From Candidatus Obscuribacter phosphatis (GTDB lineage: Bacteria > Cyanobacteriota > Vampirovibrionia > Obscuribacterales > Obscuribacteraceae), in contig MOYA01000003.1 in NCBI GenBank assembly GCA_001899315.1, positions 1-35,122 of the forward strand: DNA of 35,122 nucleotides, given 5' to 3'. The position numbers were made by a program, and so were the translations under genes. Below are positions 29,034-35,122 of the stretch, one piece after another. Under the pieces are notes generated by a model, which made no database searches, was not told the origin of the DNA, and saw nothing but the letters and a program-made list of their open reading frames with translations. How positions within the stretch are numbered: the stretch's first letter is position 1; each line of letters opens with the position of its first letter.

Positions 29034-29711
29034 ATGGCAAAGATTCTGATTGTGGAAGATGAGGTCGACCTAGCCGAGCTAATTAGTTCTTGGCTTGCTC
29101 GACACGGACACGACACCGAAACTTTCAACAACGGCGATGACGCCCTGCTCGAGCTGCGACAATATAAAAACATCTACGATCTACTTATCTTGGACGTAAG
29201 AGTGCCAGGCAAGTCGGGGCTTGATCTCTGCAAACTCTATAGACAAGAGGGTGGTCTGGCACCAATCATGGTGATAACGGCTCAAGATTCTCTAGACATG
29301 ATGGAAAAAGCCTTCACACTCGGTGCCGATGACTACATCGGCAAACCCTTTCATCTAAAAGAACTGAAACTGCGCACTGAAGGTTTGCTTAGGCGTGGTC
29401 ATCTGCCCGATACAAAGTCATTTCACATAGGCGACATAGAGCTGGATACAGCCCTTAGACAAGTAAAGAAAAACGGACAAATCGTCCATCTCTCACCGAA
29501 AGAATACTCACTACTTGAGCTATTTCTCAAGCACCCGCATCATATTTTTTCAGCCGAAGAAATATTGAGAAGAATTTGGGAGTCCGATATCGACGCCATG
29601 AATGACACTGTCAGAGGGCATATAAATAGGCTGCGCAAAAAATTAGATAAGCCGGACGGCGAATCGATTATCTCGAATATTTATGGTGTCGGTTACAAGC
29701 TCAATTCATAA
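29034..29711 (+). CDS. OmpR-family response regulator (orphan)
   Basis: A 225-residue two-domain regulator. The receiver (about 1-120) has the acidic pair EDE (8-10), the phosphorylated Asp in LLILDVRVPG, the Thr in VITAQDS and the Lys in YIGKPFHLKEL. The C-terminal winged helix (about 130-225) shows VHLSPKEYSLLELFLKHP, the recognition-helix region NDTVRGHINRLRKKL and the closing IYGVGYKL of the OmpR/PhoB class. No histidine kinase is in the window. The ribosome binding site is weak (GGG close to the ATG). The gene runs into the convergent kinase gene with a 6-base overlap. Phosphorylation by a distant histidine kinase, or cross-talk with the neighbouring Ser/Thr kinases, is possible but unproven. 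Confidence 0.93.
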   Translation: MAKILIVEDEVDLAELISSWLARHGHDTETFNNGDDALLELRQYKNIYDLLILDVRVPGKSGLDLCKLYRQEGGLAPIMVITAQDSLDMMEKAFTLGADDYIGKPFHLKELKLRTEGLLRRGHLPDTKSFHIGDIELDTALRQVKKNGQIVHLSPKEYSLLELFLKHPHHIFSAEEILRRIWESDIDAMNDTVRGHINRLRKKLDKPDGESIISNIYGVGYKLNS

Positions 29712-31871
29712 CTCAGAAAAGTTGACATAGCCTCTGCCACCATCTAGTTTCAGAGACTCACGCTCATAAAGCTCGAGTTCCAAAACCTTTCTTCTAATTG
29801 TCGCCATATCAGTCTTGGTCCAGTTAAAAGTCGGCTCGTCAAGCTTGTGTCCTAAAGCTTTCAGCTTTTCGATATTCTTTGTTGAGAGAGTAGGAATAGT
29901 TATGTTCAAAACCAAGTTGCGCCGATTTGGACAACTTTCCAAGGCTTGCAAAATTTCTTTTGGACGAAAGAGGCAGTCGTGCACTTTCAATCCCTTGAGT
30001 TGTGGAAGACTCATCAACTTAGTCAACTGGGCGGGACTAATTTCAGTTTTTTCTATATTGAGACACCTTAGTTGCTTGGCGCGGGCGAGATTATCTATGT
30101 CATCATCAGCAAGCTCTAAAGTAGATAAACACAATTCTTCCAACCTATCTAATTGCGGCAATTCAGCCAAGAACGCTTTAAACTCCTTTCCGTGCGCTGA
30201 ATTGATATAAATTATGCGAGCCTTGTGAATCTGCCGACACTTAAGCAAAGGATATTTGATATCGCAGTGCCCCACCGAGAATTCCCTTGAAGGGGGCAAT
30301 GCATCTAACAACAAAAGGTCTTTATCTAAGACCATTTGCTCTACGCGTATCTGCTTTAGCGCAGACCACCCCTTTACATAACGTTCGGCAAGATGAAAGT
30401 CGGATGCCTTAGAAAAGCGCAGTTGTAAATCAAAGGAATTTGGTTTCAAGCCGGCAATGTACTCTCTAGGGGTATCTCCGAAAATGATGAATTCATACTT
30501 GTCGTCACTTTTGAGAGGTATAGTAAGAGCCCCTTTAGCTTCACGAGCGCCGCCCGGTATCCAGATTTCTCCGATGCGAGAATTTGGAAACTGAAATTTG
30601 ATGGACTTCTTGGTGCGCGATATTTCGTAACCTCTAGAGATCAATGCACTATCCTCTTCTGAAACCTTTCTGCCCCCACTGAAACCTTCCCCATTCACCT
30701 CAATCTTCTGGGACAGTAGAGAAACCGTGCTAGTTTCGCCTGTCTTAGCCTCAAAAGTAACGTCCACCGGCGGCGCTGCCTTGGGTGGAGCCGGTTTGAC
30801 AAAATGGTAGGCAACCAGCCCCAGAAGGGTCAAGCAAACCAAAGTCAGTAGAATCAGAAGTCCACTCTTAAGTCGTGCCCTAAGCTCTGCATCGGGATCA
30901 TTACCTTCCAACGTTTGCTCAAGAGCCGGGAAGCCTTCTGACTTAACACCAGTACCATAGACGGGACGATTGTTTAAATATCGCTCCAGATCAACAGCAA
31001 ACATCTGCATAGATGAATAGCGCTCTCGCGGATTTTTCGCCATGGCACGTGCCACCAAAAGCTCAAGCTCTGTCGAGAACTGCGCCCCGCATGTCTCAGA
31101 CAAAGAAGGCAAGGGCGCCGACAGATGCATGCCCAAGGTCTCAAACATTGATTCACCTTTATACGGCACATATCCAGTAAGCATTTCAAACAAAGTACAA
31201 CCCAAACTATAAACATCGCTGAGGGGGCTAGCCTCTTGCCCTGTCACAACTTCGGGGCTCATATAGTAAGGGGTACCAAAAATCTGTCCGGTGGCAGTCA
31301 ATCTCTGCCTTTCGTTAGAAGATAGACGATCGCTACTCAAGGCAGCGATACCAAAATCGAGTACTTTCAGATTTAAATTGCTACCCTTAGCGCTGCGGGG
31401 AAGAACCAAATTAGATGGCTTCACGTCTCTGTGCACCACCCCCATACCATGGGCGAAATGCAGTGCCCTGGCCGCTTCGATCGCAGCCCTAATGGCTAAC
31501 TCTTCCTCTAAGGCACCGCGCTGAGAGATAAGATCGGCAAGACTGTCCCCCTTGATCAGTTCCATCACATAGAAAGGCGCCGCCCGCCCGGCATCAATGC
31601 CGCAGTTAAAGATCTTCACTACACCAGGGTGATCCAGCCGCCCGAGAGCCCTGGCCTCACGCACAAAGCGCTGCCAATTTTCTTCTGTAAGCAGATGGGG
31701 GTACAAAACCTTCAAAGCGACAAGCTGATCGATAAAGCGATGTCGAGCCTCAAATACGACACCCATGCCGCCACGCCCCAGCACCTTCAATAGCTCATAG
31801 TCATTCCCGACAAAATCTCCCACCCGAAAGGATGCAGGCGGCATCGCTCGATTGTCGGAACCTTCGCTCAT
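29706..31871 (-). CDS. Transmembrane Ser/Thr protein kinase with LRR-like sensor (second of pair)
   Basis: A 721-residue Hanks-type kinase. Cytoplasmic catalytic domain about 25-298: glycine loop GRGGMGVVF, Lys54, catalytic Asp149 in VVHRDVKPSN, Asp172 in DFGIA and GTPYYMSPE, all present, so it should be active. A linker with VYGTGVKSEGF precedes one membrane span (about 337-357). The outer region includes a beta-rich part and degenerate leucine-rich repeats (LEELCLSTLELADDDIDNLA, LRCLNIEKTEISPAQLTKL, LKGLKVHDCLF). It lies 84 bases after the paralogous kinase on the same strand, so the two are likely co-transcribed. The ATG at 31871 has a weak ribosome binding site. Substrates are unknown. 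Confidence 0.9.
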   Translation of the reverse strand: MSEGSDNRAMPPASFRVGDFVGNDYELLKVLGRGGMGVVFEARHRFIDQLVALKVLYPHLLTEENWQRFVREARALGRLDHPGVVKIFNCGIDAGRAAPFYVMELIKGDSLADLISQRGALEEELAIRAAIEAARALHFAHGMGVVHRDVKPSNLVLPRSAKGSNLNLKVLDFGIAALSSDRLSSNERQRLTATGQIFGTPYYMSPEVVTGQEASPLSDVYSLGCTLFEMLTGYVPYKGESMFETLGMHLSAPLPSLSETCGAQFSTELELLVARAMAKNPRERYSSMQMFAVDLERYLNNRPVYGTGVKSEGFPALEQTLEGNDPDAELRARLKSGLLILLTLVCLTLLGLVAYHFVKPAPPKAAPPVDVTFEAKTGETSTVSLLSQKIEVNGEGFSGGRKVSEEDSALISRGYEISRTKKSIKFQFPNSRIGEIWIPGGAREAKGALTIPLKSDDKYEFIIFGDTPREYIAGLKPNSFDLQLRFSKASDFHLAERYVKGWSALKQIRVEQMVLDKDLLLLDALPPSREFSVGHCDIKYPLLKCRQIHKARIIYINSAHGKEFKAFLAELPQLDRLEELCLSTLELADDDIDNLARAKQLRCLNIEKTEISPAQLTKLMSLPQLKGLKVHDCLFRPKEILQALESCPNRRNLVLNITIPTLSTKNIEKLKALGHKLDEPTFNWTKTDMATIRRKVLELELYERESLKLDGGRGYVNFSEL

Positions 31872-31936
31872 AAAGAAAAAACTTTAGGTCAATCAGGGAG
31901 AAGACACATTCTATCTAAATAGCAATGAAAAATCCG

Positions 31937-31962
31937 TGACTATTCCTCCTGTAAATTAGTCA
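31937..31962 (-). terminator. Weak stem-loop at the end of the first kinase gene
   Basis: In the minus direction TGACTA (including the TAA stop), a 14-base loop and TAGTCA are followed four bases later by TTTTT. The stem is short and AT-rich, so termination would be partial at best. The loop contains an AGGAGGAA without a start codon behind it. Confidence 0.25.
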
Positions 31963-34313
31963 TCAAACTGATAGAACCTCCCGCTTTTAGTGTCGAAATA
32001 ATAGCGCCGGGGTATCAGTTGCAAGTTCTTGGCACAGCCGGCAATCCGGGCACGTTCAGCTTCGCTCCAGACTATGTTTCGCACCGCAACCTGTTCAGCG
32101 TCCTTAATTTCAGACTTTTGCTTTTCTGTATAAGCTGGATCCATGAGTACAACTGTTTTCATATGAGCAGCCAGAGGCAGGCAAGCAAGCACATCAGGCG
32201 CTGCGAAATCCCAGTCTGTAACAATAAGTCCGCTAATTGTCTTTGCTTGGCAGAGGACTTTCAGCTGTTCAGGCGTGACCACGGTGCGGCTGAGGCTAAG
32301 CCCTCTATACGCCTTTAGCTTAGCTAGGGCGGCGATAACGTCGTCATCGACAGAGAGCCGGTCCAGCTCATAGCGCCCCAACTTTGGCAGCGATGCTGCC
32401 CATTGCAAAAGAGCCAAAATCTCAGAGCACTTTGTATGAGGACAGTTTAGAGACATATACTCAAGCTTGGCAAAGCCGACACTCTTATCGACATCAGGCA
32501 GTTCAAAGCGACAATCAGAAAGCTGAATGATCACCGGCGACGGTATCAATTTAAGCAAGCGCCAAGACGCCTTGCTTATCTTATAGTGGGCAAGCCTCAA
32601 ATGATCAATCTGTCCCCAACCCATAAGGGCTTGCGCTGCTTCCTTTGTCTGTTCATCTTCACCGATAGTGAAATAGAGCTTGACTGCATTAGGCTCGAAA
32701 CCCTTCAAGAAGAGAGGCGAGAAGCCCTCTCTTAGGTAGAATGTCGGCTTTTCGCCACTCTTTGACTGAGGCAATACAAGCTCACCGCGGGCAGGATAGT
32801 CTTTGCCGTCAAGATTGAGACGCCCCAAACAGTACTCAGACGGAAAACGAAAATGCCAGCGATTTGCCGGGTCTTTCACCTGGTAGGGCTTGAGCTGAGA
32901 GAGTAACTCTTTCTCGAAGAGAGCATAGTCAGCGGTACCATATTTGGTGACATAAACATCGGCGATACAGTCTAACTGAGTCAAGAAAAATCGTTTTCGC
33001 TCTTCTGATAACCTTATTGGCGCGATAGGCAAAGATTGCGCCTCTGGCGAAGCTATCTTGGCTACAGCCGACTCAGTCGAACCGGACCCTGCCGAGAGAG
33101 ACTTGGTATTACTTACTAGATTCTCATTTCTCCAAGCCTCATTGCCAATTTTTCTTATCATCTCATGGGAAGATCTATTCAAATTACTGTTGCGCCTATC
33201 ATTATCGGTAAAGACGGGTATTGTTTTTACAGCCAAAAGTCTCGGCACATAAAGACAAGCAAGAAGAGCCAGACAAAGAGGCAAAGCCGATAGCACAAGC
33301 GAACGCTTCAACTTGCGCCGCCGCTCTTCTTCAGTTTCTTGCACGGCTCTCAATACCGGTCCAGAAAAACCAGTAGACTTAATGCCGGCAGCATAAACCG
33401 ACAAGCCTTGCAAATAACGCTCTAGGTCGAGAGCAAATTGAGCCATACTCTGATAACGCATCTGGGGAGACTTTGCTAGGGCAAGCGACACAATTCGCTC
33501 GAGGTCCTCCTCGAACTGATTGCTCTTATCTATGTCGGAAAGCCGTGGCACAGGGCTAGAGACATGCATGCTAACAGTCTCGAAAGCACTTTCACCGACA
33601 AAGGGAGGACGTCCGGTCAAGCACTCAAAGAGAGTGCAGCCCAATGAATAAATATCGCTCCGCTTATCGACCTCGCCTAGCTCGCCGCCACTAGCCTGCT
33701 CTGGACTGAGATAGTAAGGCGTACCGAATATAGCACCAGCAGCAGTGGCATACTGCTGAGCCGAAGGCGAAGCCTGAAACAAACCTTCTTTCTTTACTTC
33801 CTTAGCGATTCCGAAATCAACAAGCTTGACTGCTGTCATAGCGCCGTTTTCGAGAACAATGATGTTGGATGGCTTCACATCGCGGTGAATGACACCATGC
33901 CGGTGGGAAAAATCTAAAGCTTGCGCCACTGCAATAGTAAGAGCTAGGGATCGGCTTACCTCAAGCCTTCGCATCTCGCTATGTTTGATGCAAGACGCCA
34001 GGGATTCGCCGTCCAAATACTCCATTACATAGAACGGGCATTCGGCATCAGCCTTACTTTTATCGATGCCAAAGTTGTAGACCTTTACTATGCCGGGATG
34101 ATCGAGCCGAGCTAGAACACGCGCCTCGACTTGAAAGCGGTGCCAAGCCTCCCGGTTGACAAGATGCGGGTAAAGCAGCTTGAGGGCGTATTGAGTGCCA
34201 GGTATGAGCTTGTGTTCTGCTAAAAACACCGCCCCCATCCCGCCTCGACCGATTGGACGGCCGAGCTTATAGTCACCCCCGACTAGATCCCCCCTTCTAT
34301 ATAGGTCTGCCAA
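31956..34313 (-). CDS. Transmembrane Ser/Thr protein kinase with LRR-like sensor (first of pair)
   Basis: A 785-residue paralogue of the next gene. Its catalytic domain (about 15-302) is complete: GRGGMGAVF, Lys45, Asp145 in VIHRDVKPSN, Asp166 in DFGIA and GTPYYLSPEQ. The linker again has VYAAGIKSTGF. One span lies near 338-360. Outside is a Ser/Asn-rich stretch, a beta-rich region and degenerate leucine-rich repeats (LEYMSLNCP, KLGRYELDRLSVDDDVIAAL, YRGLSLSRTVVTPEQLKVL). The start is a TTG at 34313 with GGGG seven bases upstream; no in-frame ATG is better, and it aligns with the paralogue. The extra length against the paralogue is mostly in the outer linker. Role unknown: perhaps envelope sensing. 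Confidence 0.9.
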   Translation of the reverse strand: MADLYRRGDLVGGDYKLGRPIGRGGMGAVFLAEHKLIPGTQYALKLLYPHLVNREAWHRFQVEARVLARLDHPGIVKVYNFGIDKSKADAECPFYVMEYLDGESLASCIKHSEMRRLEVSRSLALTIAVAQALDFSHRHGVIHRDVKPSNIIVLENGAMTAVKLVDFGIAKEVKKEGLFQASPSAQQYATAAGAIFGTPYYLSPEQASGGELGEVDKRSDIYSLGCTLFECLTGRPPFVGESAFETVSMHVSSPVPRLSDIDKSNQFEEDLERIVSLALAKSPQMRYQSMAQFALDLERYLQGLSVYAAGIKSTGFSGPVLRAVQETEEERRRKLKRSLVLSALPLCLALLACLYVPRLLAVKTIPVFTDNDRRNSNLNRSSHEMIRKIGNEAWRNENLVSNTKSLSAGSGSTESAVAKIASPEAQSLPIAPIRLSEERKRFFLTQLDCIADVYVTKYGTADYALFEKELLSQLKPYQVKDPANRWHFRFPSEYCLGRLNLDGKDYPARGELVLPQSKSGEKPTFYLREGFSPLFLKGFEPNAVKLYFTIGEDEQTKEAAQALMGWGQIDHLRLAHYKISKASWRLLKLIPSPVIIQLSDCRFELPDVDKSVGFAKLEYMSLNCPHTKCSEILALLQWAASLPKLGRYELDRLSVDDDVIAALAKLKAYRGLSLSRTVVTPEQLKVLCQAKTISGLIVTDWDFAAPDVLACLPLAAHMKTVVLMDPAYTEKQKSEIKDAEQVAVRNIVWSEAERARIAGCAKNLQLIPRRYYFDTKSGRFYQFDD

Positions 34314-34564: not shown

Positions 34565-34638
34565 GGGCTATTAGCTCAGGTGGCTAGAGCGCACCCCTGA
34601 TAAGGGTGAGGTCCCTGGTTCGAGTCCAGGATGGCCCA
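34565..34638 (+). tRNA. tRNA-Ile (anticodon GAT)
   Basis: A 74-base cloverleaf. The acceptor stem GGGCTAT pairs with ATGGCCC, the D arm is GCTC/GAGC, the anticodon stem CACCC/GGGTG has loop CTGATAA (anticodon GAT, reading ATC and ATT), and the T arm is CCTGG-TTCGAGT-CCAGG. The discriminator is A and CCA is not encoded. In many bacteria this gene sits in the 16S-23S spacer with tRNA-Ala(TGC), as the order here recalls, but no rRNA sequence is recognisable on either side. Confidence 0.96.
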
Positions 34639-34717
34639 GATCGTAAACCTTTCTGCAACAAAGCAAACACCAAATCCAATACCTGATAATATGGATGAAG
34701 TGAGCGCGGCAGGAAGA

Positions 34718-34746
34718 TTGCCCGCGAAATTCAGTCGAGTTATAAT
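34718..34746 (+). promoter_or_regulatory. Promoter of tRNA-Ala(TGC)
   Basis: TTGCCC (34718-34723), a 17-base spacer and a perfect TATAAT (34741-34746) lie between the two tRNA genes, with a start near 34753. The tRNA-Ala therefore probably has its own promoter besides read-through from tRNA-Ile. Confidence 0.6.
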
Positions 34747-34773
34747 GACGAAAGTCAAAATATTCGACTGAAT
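34729..34773. promoter_or_regulatory. Long inverted repeat around the tRNA-Ala -10 box
   Basis: ATTCAGTCGA (34729-34738) and TCGACTGAAT (34764-34773) are perfect 10-bp arms around a 25-base centre that holds the -10 box and the predicted start. Inside lies TGAC-GAAA-GTCA (34746-34757), a small stem with a GNRA tetraloop. As DNA it could be a paired operator. As RNA from the tRNA-Ile promoter it would fold into a strong composite hairpin. Confidence 0.6.
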
Positions 34774-34783
34774 CGCAAAGCCC

Positions 34784-34856
34784 GGGGGCTTGGCTCAGTT
34801 GGTAGAGCGTCTCGTTTGCACCGAGAAGGTCAGCGGTTCGAATCCGCTAGCCTCCA
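34784..34856 (+). tRNA. tRNA-Ala (anticodon TGC)
   Basis: A 73-base cloverleaf. The acceptor stem GGGGGCT pairs with AGCCTCC, with the G3-U70 wobble of alanine tRNAs. The D arm is GCTC/GAGC, the anticodon stem TCTCG/CGAGA has loop TTTGCAC (anticodon TGC, reading GCN), and the T arm is AGCGG-TTCGAAT-CCGCT. The discriminator is A and CCA is not encoded. It follows tRNA-Ile by 145 bases. With the gene at 28867 it gives two alanine isoacceptors within 6 kb. Confidence 0.96.
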
Positions 34857-34954
34857 AAATCTAAACGAGGGCGAAGACACCGGTCTGACAATTAAAGCAA
34901 ATAAGCTTTGGTAGTCAGGGTGAGCGAAGCACCTAATCACAAAAATAACCGAAA

Positions 34955-35122
34955 TCAATTCGATAATATCAATCCGATACTATCAATTCGAGAAAGGTCT
35001 GGGCATAAGCCCACGAGCCAACCGCGAGGCTCTCTAAACCGGTTCAGTACCCTGAAATCTGCATATTGAGGTCCGTATTCCACCAAGTAGTTGTGGATGC
35101 GCAAGCATTCACGGCACAGTTT
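34955..35122 (-). CDS. Possible C-terminus of a leftward gene (cut by window edge)
   Basis: Reading in from the right edge on the minus strand gives 55 sense codons and a TGA at 34955-34957. The peptide starts KLCRECLRIHNYLVEYGPQY, with a CxxC that could belong to a metal site, and ends DSIGLILSN. I do not recognise it. Open frames of this length arise by chance, so it is tentative. On the plus strand the same stretch has two small adjacent hairpins (TGGGC-ATAA-GCCCA at 35000-35013, and GAGCC/GGCTC at 35015-35032), so a structured RNA is an alternative. Confidence 0.35.
   Translation of the reverse strand, partial: KLCRECLRIHNYLVEYGPQYADFRVLNRFREPRGWLVGLCPDLSRIDSIGLILSN

Follow-up and report, generated by a model that had tools for sequence, protein, structure and literature searches.

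In a stretch of 35,122 nucleotides from the uncultured Candidatus Obscuribacter phosphatis (hereafter the window; contig 3, MOYA01000003.1, of a genome of 5.49 Mb assembled in 8 contigs, at 95% completeness and 4.5% contamination), two adjacent genes, K1 and K2, encode receptor-like Ser/Thr kinases. Taking the family assignment and the mechanism proposed below as one conclusion, we consider it likely that both are members of a large, fast-diversifying, lineage-specific family of leucine-rich repeat (LRR) receptor kinases, and that they bind diverse ligands outside the cell through their LRRs. The observations that support this conclusion are the kinase motifs, the membrane span, the predicted fold of the outer region (a cap followed by LRRs), family membership, tandem arrays, the difference in rate between the two domains and the pattern of change on the LRR concave face.

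Two complete kinases with a shared architecture

The original prediction for this locus had described two complete Hanks-type kinases, each with one membrane span, a common juxtamembrane motif and an outer part more diverged than the kinase, and all of this held up. Both open reading frames (ORFs) match PF00069 (E = 2.3e-41 for K1 and 2.8e-49 for K2; 142.4 and 168.3 bits against a curated cut-off of 31.7), and regular expressions matched the catalytic Lys, HRDxKPxN and DxG/DFG in both. The genes lie on the minus strand with 84 bp between them; the TTG start of K1 is found at the same place in its orthologue in the related genome G031. Kyte-Doolittle analysis found one hydrophobic segment in each protein, about 40–50 residues after the kinase domain and followed by a long C-terminal region. 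Among the 93 kinases of the genome, the motif YxxGxKSxGF matched K1 and K2 alone. A scan of eight further loci found it in both G031 orthologues and in one kinase of locus L098 (YAGGIKSSGF), while a dispersed third copy in the same genome (G000:C1:2017738-2019927) carries it with A replacing Y.

BLAST of K1 against K2 gave 49% identity over the kinase and a separate match of 25% over 299 aa of the outer region (E 5e-15), so the outer regions also share ancestry. Global alignment, domain by domain, gave 53% identity for the kinases and 25% for the outer regions. With the K2 kinase as query, the nearest solved relatives were bacterial: PknB (E 2e-46), PknE, StkP and PknA.

The outer region is a predicted LRR solenoid behind a cap

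The outer region had been called degenerate leucine-rich and beyond assignment to a known sensor. It is indeed leucine-rich and homologous in the two proteins, but 'degenerate' needs correction: profile and structure prediction together assign it to the LRR fold, which is confidently predicted to follow a cap. In an alignment of 58 outer regions, a cap with the pattern FxFPxxxxxG..AxG....P comes first and LRR periods come after. The profile made from it matched, among solved proteins, a GALA protein (E 1.9e-47) and then plant LRR receptor kinases (best 60 of 549 matches); internalins were also among its matches. AlphaFold2 models reached a mean pLDDT (predicted local distance difference test) of 87.5 for the K2 outer region (aa 373–721) and 82.3 for that of K1 (aa 422–785), and show the same order of elements: a beta-rich cap, parallel strand-helix units and a C-terminal hairpin. 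The repeated LxxLxL strand-helix solenoid that defines LRR proteins is thus present in both profile and models. In structural comparison with VIA-align, the best matches were 4xa9 for K2 (Z 14.0, root-mean-square deviation 3.8 over 229) and 1fs2 for K1 (Z 15.0, 3.5 over 188), and matches were often LRR proteins by name (ribonuclease inhibitor, NLRs, Skp2, FBXL17). These Z scores barely exceed what a chance arrangement of repeats can yield. Since repeat folds easily reach middling Z, the profile match is the stronger evidence for LRRs. As had been predicted, the outer domain is not PASTA: no PASTA family was among the Pfam matches of K1 and K2 at E<=1.

The cap alone (48 rows) matched no Pfam family, with one stray match in 48 (E 0.041), and its profile found no relative among solved structures by sequence (best E 0.49). 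Among 50 genomes of this Obscuribacterales family, 37 contain it and 16, spread over four genera, have at least 20 matches (28 in this genome; maximum 55, in G044); outside the family, it was seen in one of 291 genomes sampled from the phylum. By its sequence, and with sampling within the phylum, the cap looks private to its family. The lone match elsewhere is a 139-aa ORF (L285 2391-2810; E 2.7e-6) from G113, of another family of the phylum, with a start that looks lipoprotein-like by eye.

A large kinase family, much of it in tandem

The original prediction knew of two such kinases and proposed looking for more; the genome holds 28 by clustering and 29 by a later profile count. PF00069 matched at 95 places, corresponding to 93 kinase genes (two genes hold two places each, and one, C1:1434783, is weak at 36 bits). 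Among these, 47 are long-tailed, and an all-against-all phmmer comparison of outer regions gave clusters of 28 (including K1 and K2), 7 and 2. All three catalytic motifs were matched by regular expression in 63 of 93 kinases overall versus 28 of 28 LRR-family members. In a tree of 80 kinase domains, all 28 fell within one group of 32 (support 87, which is under the starred level); the kinase has thus largely been inherited along with its outer module. Six head-to-tail tandem clusters account for 13 of the 28, with intergenic distances from -11 to 84 bp when starts are taken as the first possible codon. A profile built from the K1 and K2 outer regions alone recovered 47 of 72 gathered kinase tails, rising to 60 once it had converged; that set counts two or more genes twice, as overlapping loci.

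Other genomes have very large kinomes: PF00069 was confirmed for 150 of 150 scored candidates in G013 (188 candidates) and in G028 (337 candidates), and for 103 of 115 in G044. Kinase number alone was set aside as an explanation of the family, since some genomes rich in kinase candidates lack the cap; G028, with 337 candidates, has 0 cap matches, so that other kinase types must have expanded there.

At least two of the 28 cap matches in this genome lie in proteins that lack a kinase. In the same genome, four relatives of the outer module were found that have no kinase: L282 (354 aa), L283 (336 aa), L284 (340 aa) and L287 (401 aa). The last three have an N-terminal hydrophobic segment by Kyte-Doolittle analysis; in L282 a signal-like start was seen by eye alone, from an internal Met. 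These proteins are candidate co-receptors or decoys.

Outer domains change faster than kinases

Outer identity was below kinase identity in every comparison: in 126/126 same-genome pairs with kinases at least 55% identical, and in 52/52 orthologue pairs, drawn from 267 reciprocal best hits by requiring at least 75% kinase and at least 42% outer identity. In a five-gene array of G036 the kinases are 67–77% identical and the outer domains 24–33%; for two neighbouring genes of G008 the values are 93% and 37%. At kinase identities of 80–95%, the median outer identity was 59% (37 reciprocal-best pairs with outer identity of at least 30%; pairs overlap), and the six same-genome pairs with kinases at least 80% identical had outer identities of 30, 33, 37, 44, 52 and 58% (again with overlap between pairs).

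The nonsynonymous rate (dN) of the outer domain was 1.6 to 17 times that of the kinase in 12/12 cross-genome pairs, the ratio being modest for K1 and K2 (1.6 and 2.5). The ratio of nonsynonymous to synonymous rates (dN/dS, omega) of the outer domain was 0.07–0.33 in all eight pairs with usable dS; outer and kinase values were 0.159 versus 0.087 for K1 and 0.179 versus 0.070 for K2. Eight pairs were profiled for synonymous divergence, five of them, K1/K2 included, being saturated in the kinase. Against domain swapping or gene conversion of the kinase as the cause of the contrast stands a tandem pair of G007 (L227), where dS is alike along the gene (1.34, 1.46 and 1.79 for kinase, juxtamembrane and outer parts) while dN differs four-fold (0.097 versus 0.405), which makes either process unlikely there. 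In the G008 pair, kinase and outer synonymous differences (pS) were 0.61 versus 0.74, and the kinase may have been partly converted.

Concave-face positions are relatively conserved between orthologues, not between paralogues

Positions 3, 5, 7 and 8 of LxxLxLxx should lie on the concave side of LRR structures. We counted changes at these positions in greedily chosen pairs, each gene used once. Among 16 orthologue pairs with outer identity of 0.42–0.62 (mean 0.55), 112/320 concave and 534/1120 other positions differed, a ratio of 0.73 (interval 0.60–0.89); for all 29 orthologue pairs with outer identity of at least 0.42, the concave-to-rest ratio was 0.75 (0.57–0.96). Paralogues at outer identity 0.45 (10 pairs) differed at 110/192 concave and 364/672 other positions, a ratio of 1.06 (0.82–1.27). 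The ratio was 1.10 (0.96–1.23) in a larger set (22 pairs used of 24) and 1.14 (1.04–1.24) for all paralogues (374/516 versus 1146/1806; 32 pairs used of 35). The paralogue-to-orthologue contrast was 1.44 (1.03–1.89) or 1.50 (1.19–1.87), depending on the paralogue set, and in the two sets the concave positions ranked second and first among 17 shifted position sets. This pattern resembles that of specificity-determining positions and is as expected if duplicates change specificity, though with a crude register and few independent pairs. A hypervariable concave face, as in an arms race, was not found: in no bin did concave positions change faster than the rest between orthologues.

Proposed mechanism and competing explanations

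In the mechanism that we propose, a PknB-like kinase would lie in the cytoplasm, a single helix would span the membrane, and the cap and LRR solenoid would stand outside; we infer the outward orientation of the LRRs from the cytoplasmic kinase and the single span. The concave beta face would bind a ligand, for which a protein, peptide or glycan surface is likelier than a small ion. Binding would alter dimerisation or geometry and so lead to trans-autophosphorylation, and the activated kinase would then phosphorylate cytoplasmic targets. The repertoire would grow by tandem duplication, with the kinase kept while the LRR face of a duplicate shifts its specificity, which would afterwards be fixed between species.

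A number of observations weigh against this picture. The charges flanking the span give no orientation (mean K+R of 2.79 and 2.75 in the 15 aa before and after it), and the charge rule splits 12 versus 12 among the 28 proteins; being uninformative, it was dropped. Taken as single sequences, K2 stays below the Pfam LRR cut-off (LRR_14, 17.4 versus 40 bits) and K1 has no Pfam LRR match at E<=1. Outer-domain scores served to pick the orthologue pairs from partial gene sets, so that pairs with similar outer domains are favoured. dN/dS is below 1 in both domains, with no positive selection detected. As for the concave face, the 11 closest orthologue pairs (outer identity of at least 0.80) gave a ratio of 0.83 (0.39–1.37), indistinguishable from 1; one overlapping shifted set equals the concave set in the smaller comparison (1.42 versus 1.40); repeats were registered with a simple pattern that recognises no more than 2 of them in K1 and 4 in K2; and binning still leaves the paralogue pairs more diverged than the orthologue pairs.

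A rival reading is that the outer LRRs are adhesion or cell-wall anchoring modules, which would position the kinase with no ligand specific to each paralogue, a role also proposed for the PASTA repeats of PknB. In its favour, bacterial LRRs include adhesins (the internalins among our profile matches), no ligand is known, and dN/dS is below 1. A shared anchor, however, should need no paralogue-specific concave face, whereas change at concave positions is relatively greater among paralogues than among orthologues, and neighbours in the G036 array combine closely similar kinases with outer domains of 24–33% identity; we regard anchoring as unlikely. Slightly less probable still is that the outer domain is weakly constrained and drifting, its contrast with the kinase being generic to extracellular repeats. 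Outer similarity is indeed the lower in every pair compared, K1 and K2 each have an outer omega roughly double that of the kinase, and the closest orthologues lack significant concave conservation. Yet outer omega in all eight usable pairs indicates purifying selection, and the concave face is conserved in the orthologues of intermediate identity (112/320 versus 534/1120 changed).

An anti-phage defence role for the kinase set was considered because PADLOC PD-T4-6 models match both kinases, with E down to 5e-81. These matches fall chiefly on the kinase part, however, where any Hanks kinase would be expected to match, and they were set aside as evidence of defence. A Pfam scan of six neighbouring genes returned a response regulator, a redoxin, a YfhO-like protein, an RND pump and two without a match, and we hold a defence function to be very improbable. 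Ligand-binding receptor kinases remain the explanation that we prefer.

History and surroundings of the pair

The nearest records come from Candidatus Obscuribacterales/Melainabacteria metagenome genomes, with best segments of 77% identity over nearly all of K2 in L097, 34% in L098 and 46% in REEB67. G031 has both genes in the same order (kinase/outer identities of 84/75% and 88/71%). In G030 (L098) the same slot, between tRNA-Ile/Ala and tRNA-Ala(CGC)/redoxin, holds a tandem pair with 77 bp between its genes and only 54/24% and 47/21% identity to K1 and K2. The slot is thus kept in both congeners checked, and the pair must be older than the split of the genus members.

The original prediction read the pair as a duplication followed by sensor divergence. 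For the family this stands, on the 126/126 and 52/52 pairs and the concave pattern; for K1 and K2, pairing as each other's duplicates is one of two groupings that fit the data. The third copy is as close to K1 (kinase/outer 53/28%) as K2 is (53/25%), and its kinase is 52% identical to that of K2. One tree groups it with K1 (94/65) and another leaves the order open; the approximately unbiased test rejects neither K1+K2 (p-AU 0.155) nor K1 with the third copy (p-AU 0.372). Of the refuting outcome named at the outset, kinases closer to another locus than to each other, only equal nearness was observed. The pair is old, and it is not a private duplication.

Table 1. Positions of the features discussed; those of K1 and K2 refer to the window
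Feature	Position	Strand	Basis
K1, receptor-like Ser/Thr kinase, 785 aa, TTG start	31956..34313	-	ORF, Pfam
K1 kinase domain (PF00069)	33450..34271	-	Pfam profile match
K1 juxtamembrane motif YAAGIKSTGF, aa 307-316	33366..33395	-	Regular expression; coordinates computed from aa positions
K1 membrane span, aa 338-356	33246..33302	-	Kyte-Doolittle; coordinates computed
K1 outer cap domain	32652..32921	-	Cap profile
K1 predicted outer LRR solenoid with C-terminal cap	32010..32681	-	AlphaFold2 model; coordinates computed
K2, receptor-like Ser/Thr kinase, 721 aa	29706..31871	-	ORF, Pfam
K2 kinase domain (PF00069)	30999..31799	-	Pfam profile match
K2 juxtamembrane motif YGTGVKSEGF, aa 305-314	30930..30959	-	Regular expression; coordinates computed
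K2 membrane span, aa 332-350	30822..30878	-	Kyte-Doolittle; coordinates computed
K2 outer cap domain, first row of profile A3	30402..30662	-	Model and cap profile
K2 predicted outer LRR solenoid, ~8-9 strand-helix units, then C-terminal beta hairpin	29763..30431	-	AlphaFold2 model; coordinates computed
Kinase-free relatives of the LRR module	L282 1636-2700; L283 970-1980; L284 1094-2116; L287 954-2159		Apparent export signals

An OmpR-type response regulator (window 29034-29711) is convergent with K2, overlaps it by 6 bp and is 94% identical in G031. No partner histidine kinase was seen beside it, and at its place in L098/G030 there is no ORF of at least 180 aa between the pair and the redoxin gene; coupling of the pair to this regulator was not used. 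G031 has, between the regulator and tRNA-Ala, a bicarbonate-transporter-like Sbt_1 gene with a LysM-like stretch (L097 6594-8378), which is not in the window slot and had no match in this genome in a search run without a positive control. Just past the K1 stop stands a strong ribosome-binding-like AGGAGGAAT (window 31942-31950, minus strand), with no ATG, GTG or TTG at the usual distance. Beside K1, tRNA-Ile, tRNA-Ala, 23S and 5S genes lie together without a 16S gene (window 34565-35122; L222 8566-12521); the genome's one reported 16S match lies at G000:C1:246162-247653, and the rRNA genes appear to be unlinked here.

Relation to known receptor kinases

K1 and K2 resemble the PASTA kinases PknB/Stk1 in having an N-terminal Hanks kinase, a single span and a C-terminal outer sensor, and PknB is the nearest solved relative of the K2 kinase. 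Unlike them, they lack a PASTA match, carry a cap and LRRs outside, and score far below the cut-off of NCBIfam NF033483 (270 and 263 versus 450 bits), which places them outside PASTA PknB/Stk1.

Plant LRR receptor-like kinases combine a kinase, a single span and extracellular LRRs, and form large paralogous families with tandem arrays; their LRRs are N-terminal and their kinase, of the RLK/Pelle clade, is C-terminal. K1 and K2 share the three components, the paralogous families and the tandem arrays, but their kinase is N-terminal, the reverse of the plant order, their cap is different, and the nearest solved relatives of the K2 kinase are bacterial. The likeness to plants, judged from these sequence comparisons, most likely reflects independent assembly.

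Among bacteria, Ca. Uabimicrobium amorphum and Gemmataceae have expanded Ser/Thr kinase sets with periplasmic WD40 or TPR repeats (PMC11032199). They are alike in their massive expansion, cytoplasmic kinase, mostly single span and C-terminal outer repeat domain, but the repeats are mainly WD40 or TPR, and the main text of that paper contains neither 'LRR' nor 'leucine-rich'. Cyanobacterial Ser/Thr kinases, from the same wider lineage, also carry additional domains that are mostly C-terminal; the accessible part of a survey distinguishes 14 additional domain types, LRR not among them (PMC2176072). The accessible part of a paper naming Obscuribacter does not mention kinases of this sort (PMC4040986). 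In open-licence literature, at the level of titles and abstract openings, we found no description of LRR receptor kinases from any bacterium, Obscuribacterales/Melainabacteria included. We regard the K1/K2 family as a new form of bacterial receptor kinase; expanded kinases with outer repeats were already known.

More broadly, and tentatively, we suggest that Obscuribacterales may have independently evolved an LRR receptor-kinase repertoire with tens of members per genome in several genera, many in tandem and with a lineage-specific cap. Its kinase would stay nearly constant while the concave face would be re-specified after duplication and then conserved between species, and exported kinase-free LRR proteins could serve as co-receptors or decoys. 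Plants provide the best-known large repertoires of receptor kinases with LRR ectodomains. A cyanobacterial relative that does not photosynthesise, with a separately built repertoire, reversed domain order and an apparently private cap would offer a comparison for how specificity evolves after duplication, and profile A3 and the gene arrays provide material for testing ligand specificity.

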